Of a stretch of 64,000 nucleotides of DNA, positions 3,103 to 56,909 are shown one piece after another. The notes under the pieces are model-generated. The model was not told the origin of the DNA. It saw only the letters and a program-made list of their open reading frames with translations, and made no database searches. The translations under genes were made by a program, and so were the position numbers. Every line of letters begins with the position of its first letter. Position 1 is the stretch's first letter. The DNA lies in NCBI RefSeq assembly GCF_000025325.1, contig NC_013743.1:2790001-2854000 (forward strand). Reading direction: 5' to 3'. Origin of the DNA: Haloterrigena turkmenica DSM 5511 (GTDB lineage: Archaea > Halobacteriota > Halobacteria > Halobacteriales > Natrialbaceae).

Positions 3103-3594
3103 TCAGCGCTCGTACTCGAGGTCGCGCTCGCCGTCCGTTCCTCGCTCGCGATCGTGGTCTCGGATCCACTCGTCGGCGTCCTCGAGCGTCTCCGTCTCGA
3201 GCAATCGCTCGAGTTTGCGCTCGAACTGGTCGTCGGTCAACTCGCCCGCGGCGTAGCGATCGCGGAGCGTCTCGAGGGCGTCGCGGTGATCCGCCGGCGC
3301 GTCCGTTCGATCGCCGTCGGAATCGGACTCGACGTCCGCGCTCGAGTCGGTCGTCCAGTCGTCTAGCCACTCCTTCCGGTCGGCCTCGTCGCCGAACACG
3401 AGGGCGACCAGCGGGACGACGACGATGTAGCCGACCAACAGGGCGGCGAGCCACCAGCCCTGTCCCGTGAACATTGCGCCGAGCCACAGGCCGGTCACGA
3501 GCATCGACGCGATTCCGGTCGCGTTCTCGCGGAGGCGAGTTCCCGGATCGTCTTCGGTCCGCCGCCCTCGAGCGTTCCCCTCGCTCCCGTTCAT
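3103..3594 (-). CDS. SHOCT-domain membrane protein
   Basis: A 163-residue protein with two hydrophobic segments (about 28-46 and 50-68), an Asp/Ser-rich linker, and a C-terminal SHOCT motif (about 108-135: LETLRDRYAAGELTDDQFER, then KLERLLE). SHOCT is a short C-terminal helical motif that often accompanies membrane or oligomerising proteins; its role here is unknown. The ATG at 3594 gives an N-terminus of charged residues before the first membrane segment, as usual in haloarchaeal relatives. It sits alone, facing away from the hairpin array that starts about 190 bp upstream. Confidence 0.8.
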   Translation of the reverse strand: MNGSEGNARGRRTEDDPGTRLRENATGIASMLVTGLWLGAMFTGQGWWLAALLVGYIVVVPLVALVFGDEADRKEWLDDWTTDSSADVESDSDGDRTDAPADHRDALETLRDRYAAGELTDDQFERKLERLLETETLEDADEWIRDHDRERGTDGERDLEYER

Positions 3595-3785
3595 ACGTCT
3601 CTATTCGACCGGCACCGGAAATACGTTAACGGTCCGAGATATCGTCGAACGGACCAGCGAGACGCACAGCCGCGATCTATCGCGCTCGTACCGAGCATTC
3701 GGCGTGCGGTGGCGCGCGCCGACGACGCGTCCGAGCACCGCGAGGACGCGACGGAAAACCCGCGTGAGGTCTTCGCGAGTAGTGC

Positions 3786-4052
3786 GACCTTCGGTCCCGC
3801 ATACCATGCGACCGGTGCTTCGCACCGTGAGCAGATCGCATGGGCGAACGGCTTGGAAGACGCGAAGCGTCTTCCAGTGGATGATCGAACAACCGAAGGA
3901 AGTGAGCGTTAGCGCGGAACCAGAGGTTCCGCGAACCATGCAAACGGGCAGAGCGCGGCGCAACGCGCCGCGATTGTCGGGACGGCAGAGCCGTCCCGCA
4001 GCGCCCGTGAGCAGAAATCGGCTGGGGAGGGTGTGGCAATCACCGTTGCCAC
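3786..4052. repeat. Array of short perfect hairpins with three-base loops
   Basis: A run of perfect inverted repeats in a gene-free stretch (3595-4156). Arms and loops: 3786-3796 (4 bp, TTC), 3813-3827 (6 bp, TTC), 3854-3876 (10 bp, GAA), 3913-3933 (9 bp, AGA), 3954-3972 (8 bp, AAC), 3978-3998 (9 bp, AGA), 4033-4052 (7 bp, six-base loop). Arm sequences differ from one another, so these are not copies of one repeat; what is kept is the form. No convincing protein is encoded on either strand. Function unknown: structured RNA, cruciform-forming DNA or a decayed element. Confidence 0.7.
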
Positions 4053-4156
4053 GGTAGCAGGACGTCTGTTTTCGGCCGTGTTCTCTCTTTAGCCGCTGTG
4101 CAATCGAAACGACGCTGTCGCTATCGACCGTCGGAGACAGCGGAGAAGTGCGCGTG

Positions 4157-6364
4157 TTACGCGAGCGTCTCGCCGAGCGCCTCGAGTGCGGCCTCGCGAA
4201 CGGCGTCGCGTTCGCCGGGCAGGAACTCCACGTGGCCGTCCTGCCCGCCGACGACGCTGATGCCCCCGTTGGGCACCGCGTCGTCGATCGCCTCACCGAG
4301 CTCGCGGACGTTCAGCGACTCGGTCGCGCGGACGTGCAGTTCGTCGTCGCCGACGCCGAGGGTCACGAACGGGCCCTCGTCGCGCTGTCGACGGTGGAGC
4401 GCGTCGAGCAGCAGCTTCGTCGTCGGGAAGTTGTACCGGTGGGTGAACGCGTCGGTGTCGAGCACGGCGACGGTGACGCCGTCGACCCGCTCGGTCTCTA
4501 AGTTCTCCCGGGCCGTCTCGAGTTCGGTGTCGAGTTTCGCCCGGAACTGCTCGGAGACGTGGGCGGCCAGATCGCCGTTTCGACCCGTCTCCTCGTCGCC
4601 GAACAGCAGGTCGATGACGAGTTCGCGCTTGTCCTTGTACGACTGGTAGAAGGCCTCGAGGGCGACGGCTTCCCGCCGGTCCGAGACCGCGGTCTCGTCG
4701 TAGCCGGCCTCGGTCGCGAGATCGACGTACGCCTCGGGGGTGTCCTCCCAGTAGCTGACCGCGGGGAGGTGGACGAGGTCGTCGCGGACGTCGCTGTTGA
4801 TGTGGGCGGCGACGTTCGCGGCGAGCGCCGTCGACGTGACGTCCGAGACGTCGGCGCCGGACAGCGACGGTGCGACGGCGACCGAGACGGCGTCGGCGAT
4901 CTCCTCGTCGGCGCGGCTATCGTCGATGACGACCGTCTCGGCGTCGTACAGCGAGAGCAGGTCGTAGCCGTCGATCGACTCCTCGGTGGAGCCGGCGTCG
5001 GCGACGACGACCAGCGGCAGTTGCTCGCCGTGGCGGTCGCGGGCTTCGAGCATCGAGGTGACGTCGCTGGTAGCGGCGTCCATGTCGTAGACGCGGCCGT
5101 CGAGCGGGCGTCGCTCGAAGTAGTGGTACTCCGCGTCCTCGCGGGTGTGTTTCTCGCGGATCAGCGGGAGGACGGCCCGCTCGATGGCGGCGCCGGCGAC
5201 GTAGCCGTCGGCGGTCGCGCCGTGGCGGACGACGATCGGTCGGGCCTCGACGACGGCGCGGCGGATCGCGGTCGCGGCGTCGGAGAGTCCGTCCTCGACG
5301 GCGGCGACGGCGTCGTGGTCGGCCAGCAGGTCGATCTCGGCCGGTCGGGCCTCGCGTTCGATCGATTCCTCGAGACGGTCGCGGACGGTCTCGCGGTCCT
5401 CGCCCTCGAGGATCTCGAGGGTCTCCGTCTCGATCTGGAGGTCGCCGTGGTGGCGTTCGACCTCGCCCTCGAGGCGAACGACGTCGTCGACGTCGACGTC
5501 GGGGTAGGCGCGGACGCCGGCCTCCTCGAAGGCGGCACACTCGACGGTGGCCGTCTCGTCGCGGAGTTCGAAGACGGTCGGGCCGCTGGTCTGGCGGACG
5601 CCGGTGATCTCGCCCTCGAGGCGAACGACGCTGCCGACCTGGTTCTCGATGGCCTCGATCGTCGTGCGCTTGAGCGCCGGTTCGGCCTCGGGTTCGGCGT
5701 CGGCCGCGTCGTCGGTGGCCGCCGTCGAGCCGGTCGCGGCCGTCTCGGTTGCGACGCCGCCGCTACCAGCGGCGACGGTTTCGCTCGCGTTCGGCGCGCC
5801 GGTCTCGTCGGACGGCCCCGTATCGTCGGCGGCCGCCTGCAGGTCGCCGGCAGCGGGATCCTCGTCGGCGCTCGCTTCCGATTCGGTATCGGTCGCGGTC
5901 TCGGCTCCCGCGTCGGTGTCGGAATCGGATCCGGAACTGGAACCGGAATCGGCGGCCGACTCGGCTTCGGCGTCGTCCTCGAGATCCTCGGGACGAACCT
6001 CGTCGTCGCCCGTGTCGATCAGGTGGCCGCGGAACTCGCGTTCGCGCTGGCGGATCGACCAGCCGAGGTCGACGTTGCCGTTGTCTCGAACGTCGAGAAC
6101 CTGGACGAAGACCTCGTCGCCGGACTCCCAGTCGAGGCTCTCCAGTCGTCGGTCGAGTTCGCTCCTGTGCAACAGACCGGTTACGTGGTCTCCGATGTCG
6201 ACGAAGACACCGAAGTCGGCGTAGCCGTCGACGACGCCCCGGTAGTACCGACCGGGGGTGAGCTCCGAGGCGGACGTGCCACGAAATTCGAAGACCGCGT
6301 CCTCCTCGTGACTCTCGCAGATTTCGCCGTCGACAGTTGTGCCACAGATGATACAGTTACCCAT
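4157..6364 (-). CDS. RecJ-like DHH-family protein with zinc ribbon, S1 and OB domains
   Basis: A 735-residue protein. Domains in order: zinc ribbon (3-20, CIICGTTVDGEICESH), S1 RNA-binding domain (about 33-110), Asp/Glu/Ala/Thr-rich linker (about 120-225), OB-fold nucleic-acid-binding domain (about 232-320), DHH domain (about 340-560) and a DHHA1-like C-terminus with GGQDGHVEF. RecJ/Cdc45-type DHH proteins act in replication or repair as exonucleases or inactive scaffolds. Motif II is recognisable (VVVADAG), but the DHH triad at motif III reads DDS (VVIDDSRAD), and the first motif is ATADG without the leading Asp. Nuclease activity is therefore doubtful. It is monocistronic, with its start just after the end of the convergently oriented thiolase operon. 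Confidence 0.8.
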   Translation of the reverse strand: MGNCIICGTTVDGEICESHEEDAVFEFRGTSASELTPGRYYRGVVDGYADFGVFVDIGDHVTGLLHRSELDRRLESLDWESGDEVFVQVLDVRDNGNVDLGWSIRQREREFRGHLIDTGDDEVRPEDLEDDAEAESAADSGSSSGSDSDTDAGAETATDTESEASADEDPAAGDLQAAADDTGPSDETGAPNASETVAAGSGGVATETAATGSTAATDDAADAEPEAEPALKRTTIEAIENQVGSVVRLEGEITGVRQTSGPTVFELRDETATVECAAFEEAGVRAYPDVDVDDVVRLEGEVERHHGDLQIETETLEILEGEDRETVRDRLEESIEREARPAEIDLLADHDAVAAVEDGLSDAATAIRRAVVEARPIVVRHGATADGYVAGAAIERAVLPLIREKHTREDAEYHYFERRPLDGRVYDMDAATSDVTSMLEARDRHGEQLPLVVVADAGSTEESIDGYDLLSLYDAETVVIDDSRADEEIADAVSVAVAPSLSGADVSDVTSTALAANVAAHINSDVRDDLVHLPAVSYWEDTPEAYVDLATEAGYDETAVSDRREAVALEAFYQSYKDKRELVIDLLFGDEETGRNGDLAAHVSEQFRAKLDTELETARENLETERVDGVTVAVLDTDAFTHRYNFPTTKLLLDALHRRQRDEGPFVTLGVGDDELHVRATESLNVRELGEAIDDAVPNGGISVVGGQDGHVEFLPGERDAVREAALEALGETLA

Positions 6365-30219: not shown

Positions 30220-30433
30220 GGATTGGTAGTCGATCGCCCGCATTGTAATCCCTGAGGTGTCGGCGGATTCCGTTCCGCTCCCCGAGGCGATCCGCGTGAG
30301 GATCGGTCCGACTCCGGATAGCGCACTTCGGCGGTGGATTTCGGACGCCCCGTCCCGCCGCCGTCCCGCGATTGTGCAGTCATCGTGCACACGCGCTCAA
30401 ACGCTTTGAGAGCGGCCGCACTACCATCGACCG

Positions 30434-30654
30434 CACCGGGTAGCTCCGGTGTGCGACCGTTACGGTCGCGGGGGGTGACGACGCGGGTCGCCGTTGCGCT
30501 TCGACGACCCGCGGTAGCGTCCCGCGGTTATTGAGGCACGGGCCGCGGGACCGCCTTCCGGTCACCGCGAGGTCGCGGTCGTCGACCGGAAGGCGACCCA
30601 CCAGCTTCGCGATTCGAAAACGACCGCGATCGGGCGCCGCGACGAGCGTCGCGG
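30434..30654. repeat. Consecutive inverted repeats filling a 220-bp gap
   Basis: Six adjoining perfect inverted repeats: 30434-30451 (6-bp arms), 30453-30469 (7 bp, loop TTA), 30482-30513 (9 bp), 30519-30551 (9 bp), 30552-30595 (12-bp arms enclosing a nested 7-bp hairpin at 30564-30579) and 30637-30654 (8 bp, two-base loop). They follow with almost no unpaired spacing. No protein is supported. The stretch lies between the co-directional flavoprotein and phaB genes. A structured RNA or cruciform DNA element is possible. Confidence 0.65.
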
Positions 30655-30698
30655 TCACTCGGATGTCCACTCCCAGTCCTACTTCGAATGCAGCGGGT

Positions 30699-32775: not shown

Positions 32776-33216
32776 CTATGCGTACTCGAACCGCACCGCG
32801 TTGCGATTTCGACGTCGAGTGCCGTCGAATACCCGCTTACTCCGTAGGAAATCGAACCTTCGTTCCGCCACGTTCCAGACGCGAATCGACCCGCTTCGGG
32901 AGCGGGCTGGAAGCGCTTTCGGAGCGCAGACCGAATCCGCACTCGTCGCAGTCGATATACGTGTTCGTACGACCGTAGCTCGGTCGTCCGTCGCCGGCCC
33001 GGTCCGACCCGCTTCGCGAGTATTCTTCTCGAAAACTCGAACAGTACTGTCACTTTCGACAGTGATCATCCCCTTACTCATCCCGCGGATAGCTGCGTCG
33101 AGGGTGTCCGACTCGAGAGTCCGATACCGCGGCGGAAGCTCCAACTGATCGATGGCCGTGACCAGCGCCATTTCCTGTACGATGGTCTGGATACTCGATT
33201 GCTGGCTACGTTCCAT
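32776..33216 (-). CDS. HalOD1-like protein with a doubtful C-terminal extension
   Basis: The open frame gives 146 residues. The first 65 resemble a HalOD1 domain (IQTIVQEMALVTAIDQLELP, PRYRTLESDTLDAAIRG, ITVESDSTVRVFEKN). The rest is Arg/Ser-rich, has no haloarchaeal codon bias and runs through a cluster of small hairpins (32890-32987), so it looks like read-through after loss of a stop. The ATG at 33216 lies 14 bases after the nikR stop, so it is probably co-transcribed with nikR. A TTG at 33231 is an alternative start. It may be a decaying gene. Confidence 0.45.
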   Translation of the reverse strand: MERSQQSSIQTIVQEMALVTAIDQLELPPRYRTLESDTLDAAIRGMSKGMITVESDSTVRVFEKNTREAGRTGPATDDRATVVRTRISTATSADSVCAPKALPARSRSGSIRVWNVAERRFDFLRSKRVFDGTRRRNRNAVRFEYA

Positions 33217-56691: not shown

Positions 56692-56772
56692 GCCGTCCGA
56701 CTCGATAGCTGCCGCGAACAGTCGAAGACCGCGAGCGACCAAAGGGAGTGAGCGGGCCGAGGAACCCTCGAA

Positions 56773-56871
56773 GCCGCGCCTTGGCGCGGCTGAGGGGGTG
56801 ACGCTGTGCTTTTGATCAACCTTTTGCCGAGTGCGGTCGCGAAGCGACCGCACGCAGCGTAAAAGGTTGAT
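56773..56871. repeat. Hairpin and nested inverted repeat
   Basis: AGCCGCGCC-TT-GGCGCGGCT (56773-56792) is a nine-bp hairpin. Then ATCAACCTTTT (about 56815-56825) pairs with AAAAGGTTGAT (56861-56871) around an inner ten-bp hairpin, GTGCGGTCGC-GAA-GCGACCGCAC (56831-56853). The GAA loop recalls the array at 3786-4052. Confidence 0.6.
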
Positions 56872-56909
56872 GGCGAACGTTTTTCTCGTCCCGGTTCGAC
56901 GCACCCCCT

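Follow-up and report, generated by a model that had tools for sequence, protein, structure and literature searches.

A hairpin array of Haloterrigena turkmenica as the probable interior of a dispersed, folded intergenic element of Halobacteriales

In bacteria, modular intergenic elements such as BOX combine constant ends with internal modules that vary in number. The REP sequences of the GTAG and CGTC families are located at gene ends, occur as singletons and as HH or TT dimers (HT dimers being rare), and have alternative complementary stems and GT pairs, according to the accessible part of PMC3733652, where it is also discussed whether they serve as gyrase targets or, in RNA, act post-transcriptionally. 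In the haloarchaeon Haloquadratum, PATE elements are non-coding, lack terminal inverted repeats, possess a palindrome near one end and are heterogeneous among copies, and the SMR-A units (~110 bp, with inverted ends) are nested in the palindromes of another repeat (PMC3119063, accessible part). REPs of archaea have been surveyed (PMC12306157); in the available main text, no word starts with 'halo'. No published description of the element reported here was found in a literature search with subscription journals and supplements mostly outside its reach, nor in the accessible parts of PMC3119063, PMC10544981, PMC3733652, PMC12306157, PMC3404096, PMC3402447 and PMC2864571.

The locus lies in a 64,000-nt stretch of the H. 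turkmenica genome (the window), the coordinates of which are used below. All seven hairpins pointed out in a sequence-only reading of this DNA are present, at 3786–3796 (GACC-TTC-GGTC, 4-bp arms), 3813–3827 (CGGTGC-TTC, 6-bp arms), 3854–3876 (TGGAAGACGC-GAA, 10-bp arms), 3913–3933 (CGCGGAACC-AGA, 9-bp arms), 3954–3972 (CGCGGCGC-AAC, 8-bp arms), 3978–3998 (CGGGACGGC-AGA, 9-bp arms) and, on the + strand, 4033–4052 (GTGGCAA-TCACCG-TTGCCAC, 7-bp arms and a six-base loop); the last one is the terminal helix P3 described below, as judged from column conservation. The three-base loops, which had been called conserved, are constant in length but not in sequence. This 267-bp array is the densest stretch of the window for perfect triloop hairpins. 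Five such hairpins with perfect arms of at least 6 bp were observed, whereas 2000 shuffles that preserve dinucleotides gave 0.089 on average and never reached five; chance clustering in GC-rich DNA was thus ruled out. The 331-nt stretch of the array folds better than shuffled sequences on both strands (z of −5.3 and −5.0). There is indeed no gene in 3595–4156, as had been claimed; the left neighbour encodes a SHOCT domain protein (3103–3594, − strand), and the right neighbour, a gene for a protein with S1 and OB-fold domains (4157–6364, − strand), has its stop codon towards the array.

Judged from comparison with other copies, the array is not free-standing and consists of cassettes within a larger conserved core. 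The whole element copy spans 3706–4061 on the + strand (~356 bp), from the 5′ end GCGGTGGCGCGCGC to the tail GGTAGCAGG; its ends were set by conservation across 78–89 copies, with the same site filled in four congeners, and its outer limits are approximate by some bases. The core is arranged in the order of motif M1 (GCGGTGGCGCGCGC), helix P1, motif M2 (CCGTGCGAGG), helix P2, motif M3, helix P3 and a tail around CGATAGCAG. In this copy, where all features are on the + strand, M1 occupies 3706–3719, and positions 3713–3718 form the 5′ strand of a further helix, P0, the 3′ strand of which is provided by M2 at 3760–3769 (CCGCGTGAGG here, usually CCGTGCGAGG). P1 (3723–3753) has arms at 3723–3732 and 3744–3753 and a tandem GA beside its loop. 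The cassettes between M2 and P2 (3770–3879) comprise the first three hairpins of the array, the second of which lies in an outer stem (3804–3811/3836–3843); these cassettes are missing from the orthologous site in the related genomes G001 and G003, and the same modules are seen elsewhere. P2 (3880–3907) reads GAT GA TC GA AC AA CC - GAA - GG AA GT GA GC, which is a G.A ladder with a GAA loop, and its outer partner ATC is found at 4017–4019. The cassettes between P2 and M3 (3909–4015) comprise the fourth to sixth hairpins, the last two within a CGGGC/GCCCG stem; they are variable or missing at orthologous sites and recur in other genera. The conserved motif M3 (AATCGGCTGGGGAGGGTGTGG) occupies 4016–4036. 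The sequence that follows P3 is CGATAGCAG or CGGTAGCAG in many copies, with no fixed GTAG.

A BLAST search of 3770–4080 against the H. turkmenica genome (G000) yielded at least 71 pieces in the form of modular fragments (40 of 92 candidate regions scored), and the same query had matches in 126 of 199 relatives. The 37 loci compared share constant ends and a variable interior. When the 3′ motif AATCGGYTGGGGAGGRYGTGG was searched with up to three mismatches, 89 copies were identified in G000, versus none for the reversed control pattern; the proposal that a genome-wide class of element might exist thus proved correct. All 89 copies reside on the main chromosome C1 (3.89 Mb), none being found on replicons C2–C7 (1.55 Mb), and M1 is present in 78 of them. 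The same search in five congeners detected 145, 51, 62, 76 and 96 copies. Among 243 genomes of the order Halobacteriales, several families other than that of H. turkmenica have tens of copies of the motif (e.g. 78 in G221, 57 in G229, 46 each in G127 and G291, 37 in G214 and 31 in G122), and others show counts equal or close to that of the control. Outside the order, one of 203 genomes contains one match, as does its control pattern. The arrangement M1-P1-M2-P2-M3 is also present, without P3, in another family of the order.

Covariation was analysed in 20 of 66 cassette-free cores, which share one P1 length (unequal lengths would require gaps). In these cores, the structure named above gives 94.3% standard pairs, and sliding the partners abolishes the signal; the covariation score was 0.527, compared with 0.228 in shuffles, none of 500 being as high. 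Unguided RNAalifold analysis of the same ungapped cores, which derive from several species, predicted P0, P1 and P2 with 28 pairs, 17 of which show two-sided changes. For P0, which pairs M1 with M2, the top three of 196 column pairs in Watson–Crick excess lie on one antidiagonal, and at one position G.U prevails over all other pairs (12 of 20 cores). P1, a hairpin averaging 9 bp, was analysed in simple form (25–62 nt; 61 of 78 copies in G000 and 128 of 163 overall). The hairpin is formed in 110 of the 128 simple copies from all species compared, with 100 distinct left arms (60 distinct of 61 in G000), a tandem GA beside the loop in 91 of the 110, and 20 G.T versus 4 A.C pairs. In P2 (111 of 115 copies used), GAT/ATC is followed by GA.GA alternating with two-base-pair steps up to a three-base loop, mostly GNA (57/111). 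GA/GA occurs at the successive steps in 104/111, 95/111 and 74/88 copies, and the intervening dinucleotides are reverse-complementary in 82/111, 80/111 and 58/88, whereas random re-pairing would give 53.5, 23.8 and 17.3, respectively; here, 36 G.T and 9 A.C pairs were counted. The idea that pairing itself is kept is therefore supported by covariation and by the complementary P1 and P2 arms across copies. The arm sequences that vary freely are those of P1 and P2; the hairpins of the array are recurring modules.

Because the G.A ladder steps and the excess of G.T over A.C exist on the + strand only, these patterns show the + strand to be the predicted folding strand and folding to be restricted to it. 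That a folded shape is kept while the letters differ between copies suggests that the shape itself does a job beside gene ends. On balance, we favour the interpretation that the hairpins make up the inside of a single copy of a dispersed, non-coding element of Halobacteriales that folds in a strand-specific manner and corresponds in type to REP/BIME. Neutral palindrome correction, in which template switching keeps arms complementary without functional selection, would account for arms that are often perfect and unrelated between copies. Such correction would, however, also erase the G.A steps (retained in 243 of 260 cases) and would not generate a one-strand excess of G.T over A.C (20:4 in P1 and 36:9 in P2); we regard it as very improbable.

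The interior of the element differs among species. At the site of the present copy, G001 and G003 have a bare core, G004 has two hairpins, G000 seven and G002 about eight, with the same ends, and no element was found at the orthologous site of G005 or in the other-genus orthologues scanned. Among the 77 parsed copies of G000, 35 lack a cassette, and the remainder have cassettes inserted into the loop of P1, behind M2 and/or around P2. These comparisons show that cassettes are gained, lost or swapped at orthologous sites while the ends stay. Copying does matter, contrary to the sequence-only reading, which held that it does not explain the hairpins, because each hairpin of the array recurs as a module at other loci and in other species. 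P1 also varies: in 44 comparisons of G000 with G001 or G004, its identity ranges from 0.47 to 0.98, some copies being nearly unchanged and some replaced yet paired, and the hairpin was kept in 7 of 8 comparisons with identities of 0.60 or less. Compensatory changes, which that reading had proposed to look for between strains, were found between these genomes in alignable P1 in that 18 two-sided changes keep the pair, but 7 break it (227 pairs are unchanged); one-sided changes produced 11 G.T, 5 A.C and 25 other mismatches. This imperfect pairing at orthologous sites (25 outright breaks, 5 A.C and 7 two-sided breaks) counts against the folded-element interpretation. At locus L170, three compensated pairs differ between G000 and G004.

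At L159, a tail-to-tail pair (G000:C1:2346000-2351200), the P1 helices of the two members are exchanged relative to G004 L225 and G001 L316. The exchange is reciprocal, with P2 and the tails unmoved, as if two inversions had occurred between inverted anchors. Identical or near-identical P1 blocks with unrelated flanks were also found, e.g. in G004 L233 and L238 (103 nt at 98%) and in G000 L153 and L173 (122 nt at 98%). As such blocks recur at unrelated loci and P1 is exchanged at L159, modules appear to be transferred from locus to locus, for which recombination or gene conversion would be the simplest route.

The anchors are better preserved than their surroundings. In orthologous copies, the identities of M1 and M3 are 0.89–0.92, compared with 0.61–0.66 for flanking 22-mers, the former being somewhat inflated by detection, which requires M1 and M3 within a few mismatches. 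These values were obtained from 69 of 109 orthologue rows (44 of the 69 with a simple P1 on both sides), leaving out 11 with no element by pattern, 11 from G002 or G003 and 18 with no readable core. These values and the likeness of M3 between families of the order point to purifying selection on the anchors; gene conversion between copies offers a partial alternative and, as it could contribute to the similarity of M1–M3, counts against the interpretation favoured above. Presence at orthologous sites (48 of 49 in G001 and 39 of 49 in G004) is biased upward, the loci having mostly been chosen as element-bearing. In stretches of G004 at 1–340, 520–560 and 600–620 kb (the last two picked near listed copies), both flanks were located for 16 G000 copies, of which 11 have a counterpart at the same position and 5 do not; 2 further sites are occupied in G004 only.

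These 5 empty and 2 private sites would be expected of a non-autonomous mobile element (PATE- or MITE-like), the folded + strand of which would serve a transposase or an RNA-based copying machine as substrate, with selection on structure for mobility only. The dispersed distribution, the patchy occurrence among related genomes (0–145 copies, a range that resembles a selfish element and counts against the interpretation favoured above), the unbiased orientation relative to genes (16 sense and 22 antisense) and the P3 palindrome near the terminus are also in line with this explanation, which we nevertheless consider rather unlikely. The 11 of 16 shared sites indicate slow turnover. No intact Y1 transposase was found in G000, only a broken remnant with a stop, and M3 is present in none of 13 TnpB loci; an IS605/PATE origin was rejected on these grounds. 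None of the 89 copies has a gene between the element ends, as an autonomous copy would. A virus or plasmid origin was also rejected, with no match in viral contigs or phages and one in a plasmid record. Terminal inverted repeats of the MITE type were not found among the copies, M1 and M3/tail not being inverted copies of each other. PATE elements insert at a target of 4–5 bases without duplicating it; here, the divergence of the intergenic flanks left no clean empty site from which a target duplication might have been read. The element resembles PATE in all the traits listed at the outset and is likewise too short to code, but its ends are not shared with the 13 TnpB loci, its loci are largely stable between species and its internal helices covary strongly. 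Because IS605-type ends were tested for and not found, it was not classed as PATE. The cassettes are reminiscent of SMR-A as small units nested in another repeat's palindromes, but are short hairpins without inverted ends (PMC3119063, accessible part).

Copies show a preference for gene ends. Of the 89 copies in G000, 84 are intergenic, with 38 in convergent, 38 in co-directional and 8 in divergent gaps; in a small control (12 stretches totalling 240 kb, home-made gene caller), convergent gaps made up 22% of the intergenic bases in gaps >100 bp. Copies <1 kb apart are arranged tail-to-tail in 51 of 53 cases in five Haloterrigena genomes: 14/14 in G000, 12/12 in G001 and, among the copies listed, 14/16 in G005 (100 listed), 6/6 in G003 (74) and 5/5 in G004 (50). 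In contrast, all four close pairs listed for G255 and G263 of another family (L331–L334) are head-to-head. Runs of the same orientation occur in G005 (runs test, P = 0.034), as would be expected if the folded strand were a signal tied to replication direction, i.e. to lagging-strand insertion or a polar chromosome signal. The test was not significant in G000 (P = 0.24), however, and the blocks are oppositely oriented in the two genomes despite colinear cdc6 genes. Replication polarity, of which there is a weak sign in G005 but none in G000 and which is not conserved, was thus rejected, and we give this explanation very little credence.

Tandem G.A pairs and GNRA-like loops are common in RNA; in single-stranded DNA, C(GNA)G loops and tandem G.A pairs of the YGAR type have exceptional stability. 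A structured RNA, either a 3′ UTR element or an sRNA folded after transcription, with read-through provided by the gene-end location, is possible but doubtful. The location after genes, the loops and tandem G.A pairs, the G.U-rich position of P0 and the excess of G.T over A.C throughout argue for it, and the G.U-rich P0 leans towards RNA rather than DNA. On the other hand, TATA-like words were found at −45 to −20 in 1 of 78 copies, with flat upstream A+T; the 16 sense and 22 antisense copies in co-directional gaps show no sense excess; and Rfam 15 gave only tRNA in the window, the best sub-threshold match of the element having an E value of 0.98, so that a known RNA family was rejected. Because of the lack of a promoter signal and of a sense-strand preference, action at the DNA level appears slightly preferable to action at the RNA level.

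Gene-end location, pair orientation, complementary stems and GT pairs fit REP/BIME, from which we infer a folded-strand element at gene ends. The + strand would act as a folded single strand, either as DNA extruded near gene ends, where the duplex is twisted by transcription, or as read-through RNA. A protein or topoisomerase may recognise the shape of the G.A ladder. P1 and the cassettes would be exchanged between copies by recombination or gene conversion, with M1, M2 and M3 serving as homology anchors. Like REP/BIME as described in the accessible part of PMC3733652, the elements are high-copy intergenic palindromes located after genes or between convergent genes, with singletons, same-type dimers, alternative complementary stems and GT pairs. 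Unlike the short single stem-loop (20–40 bp) of REP/BIME, the core has three to four helices (~150 nt) plus cassettes; it further differs in the G.A-ladder helix, the archaeal host and the absence of an intact Y1/RAYT gene in G000, and probably in having no fixed counterpart of the unpaired GTAG or CGTC tag at one foot of the REP stem. Since it has neither a single short stem nor an intact RAYT, the element was not classed as REP. Its sequence is unrelated to BOX-type elements, for which we know of no arm covariation of this degree. More tentatively, an order-wide class of archaeal folded single-strand signals could be envisaged, in which G.A-ladder hairpins of free sequence, selected for shape at each locus and present in 50–150 chromosomal copies, act as gene-end or chromosome-organising signals read by a protein, with cassettes swapped between copies. 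If the folded-element interpretation is true, archaea would gain a large intergenic element family comparable to REP/BIME, with strong evidence for selection on shape over sequence and, in each genome, dozens of natural replicates in which to look for its reader. The G.A-ladder helix and the exchange of cassettes at fixed loci are unusual and testable, and the element would account for the abundance of GC-rich hairpins in such haloarchaeal intergenic regions.

Several minor features were also observed. A possible pseudoknot would join GGGGA of M3 to the conserved TCCCC in the loop of P3 (4024–4045 in the window and in other copies too). At some loci (the orthologues of L186 and L156 in G001 and G004), the P2 ladder is replaced by an alternative P2 consisting of a direct repeat, GAGGACCGCA...GAGGACCGCA. 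Three other regions of the window had been likened to the array. Those at 30400–30660 and 32860–33010 are not members of the family and had no second copy within the ~0.6 Mb of genome compared, and the third (56773–56871) belongs, with its surroundings (56700–56890), to a different dispersed family. At 56719–56880, this second family has a CCGC...GCGG hairpin with a G.A ladder (GAGCGACC..GGGAGTGAGC), followed by a long AACCTTTT..AAAAGGTT hairpin, and related pieces were found at four other loci within the same ~0.6 Mb, namely L132 (1326–1645), L181 (4197–4238), L190 (10057–10179) and L192 (13713–13747).
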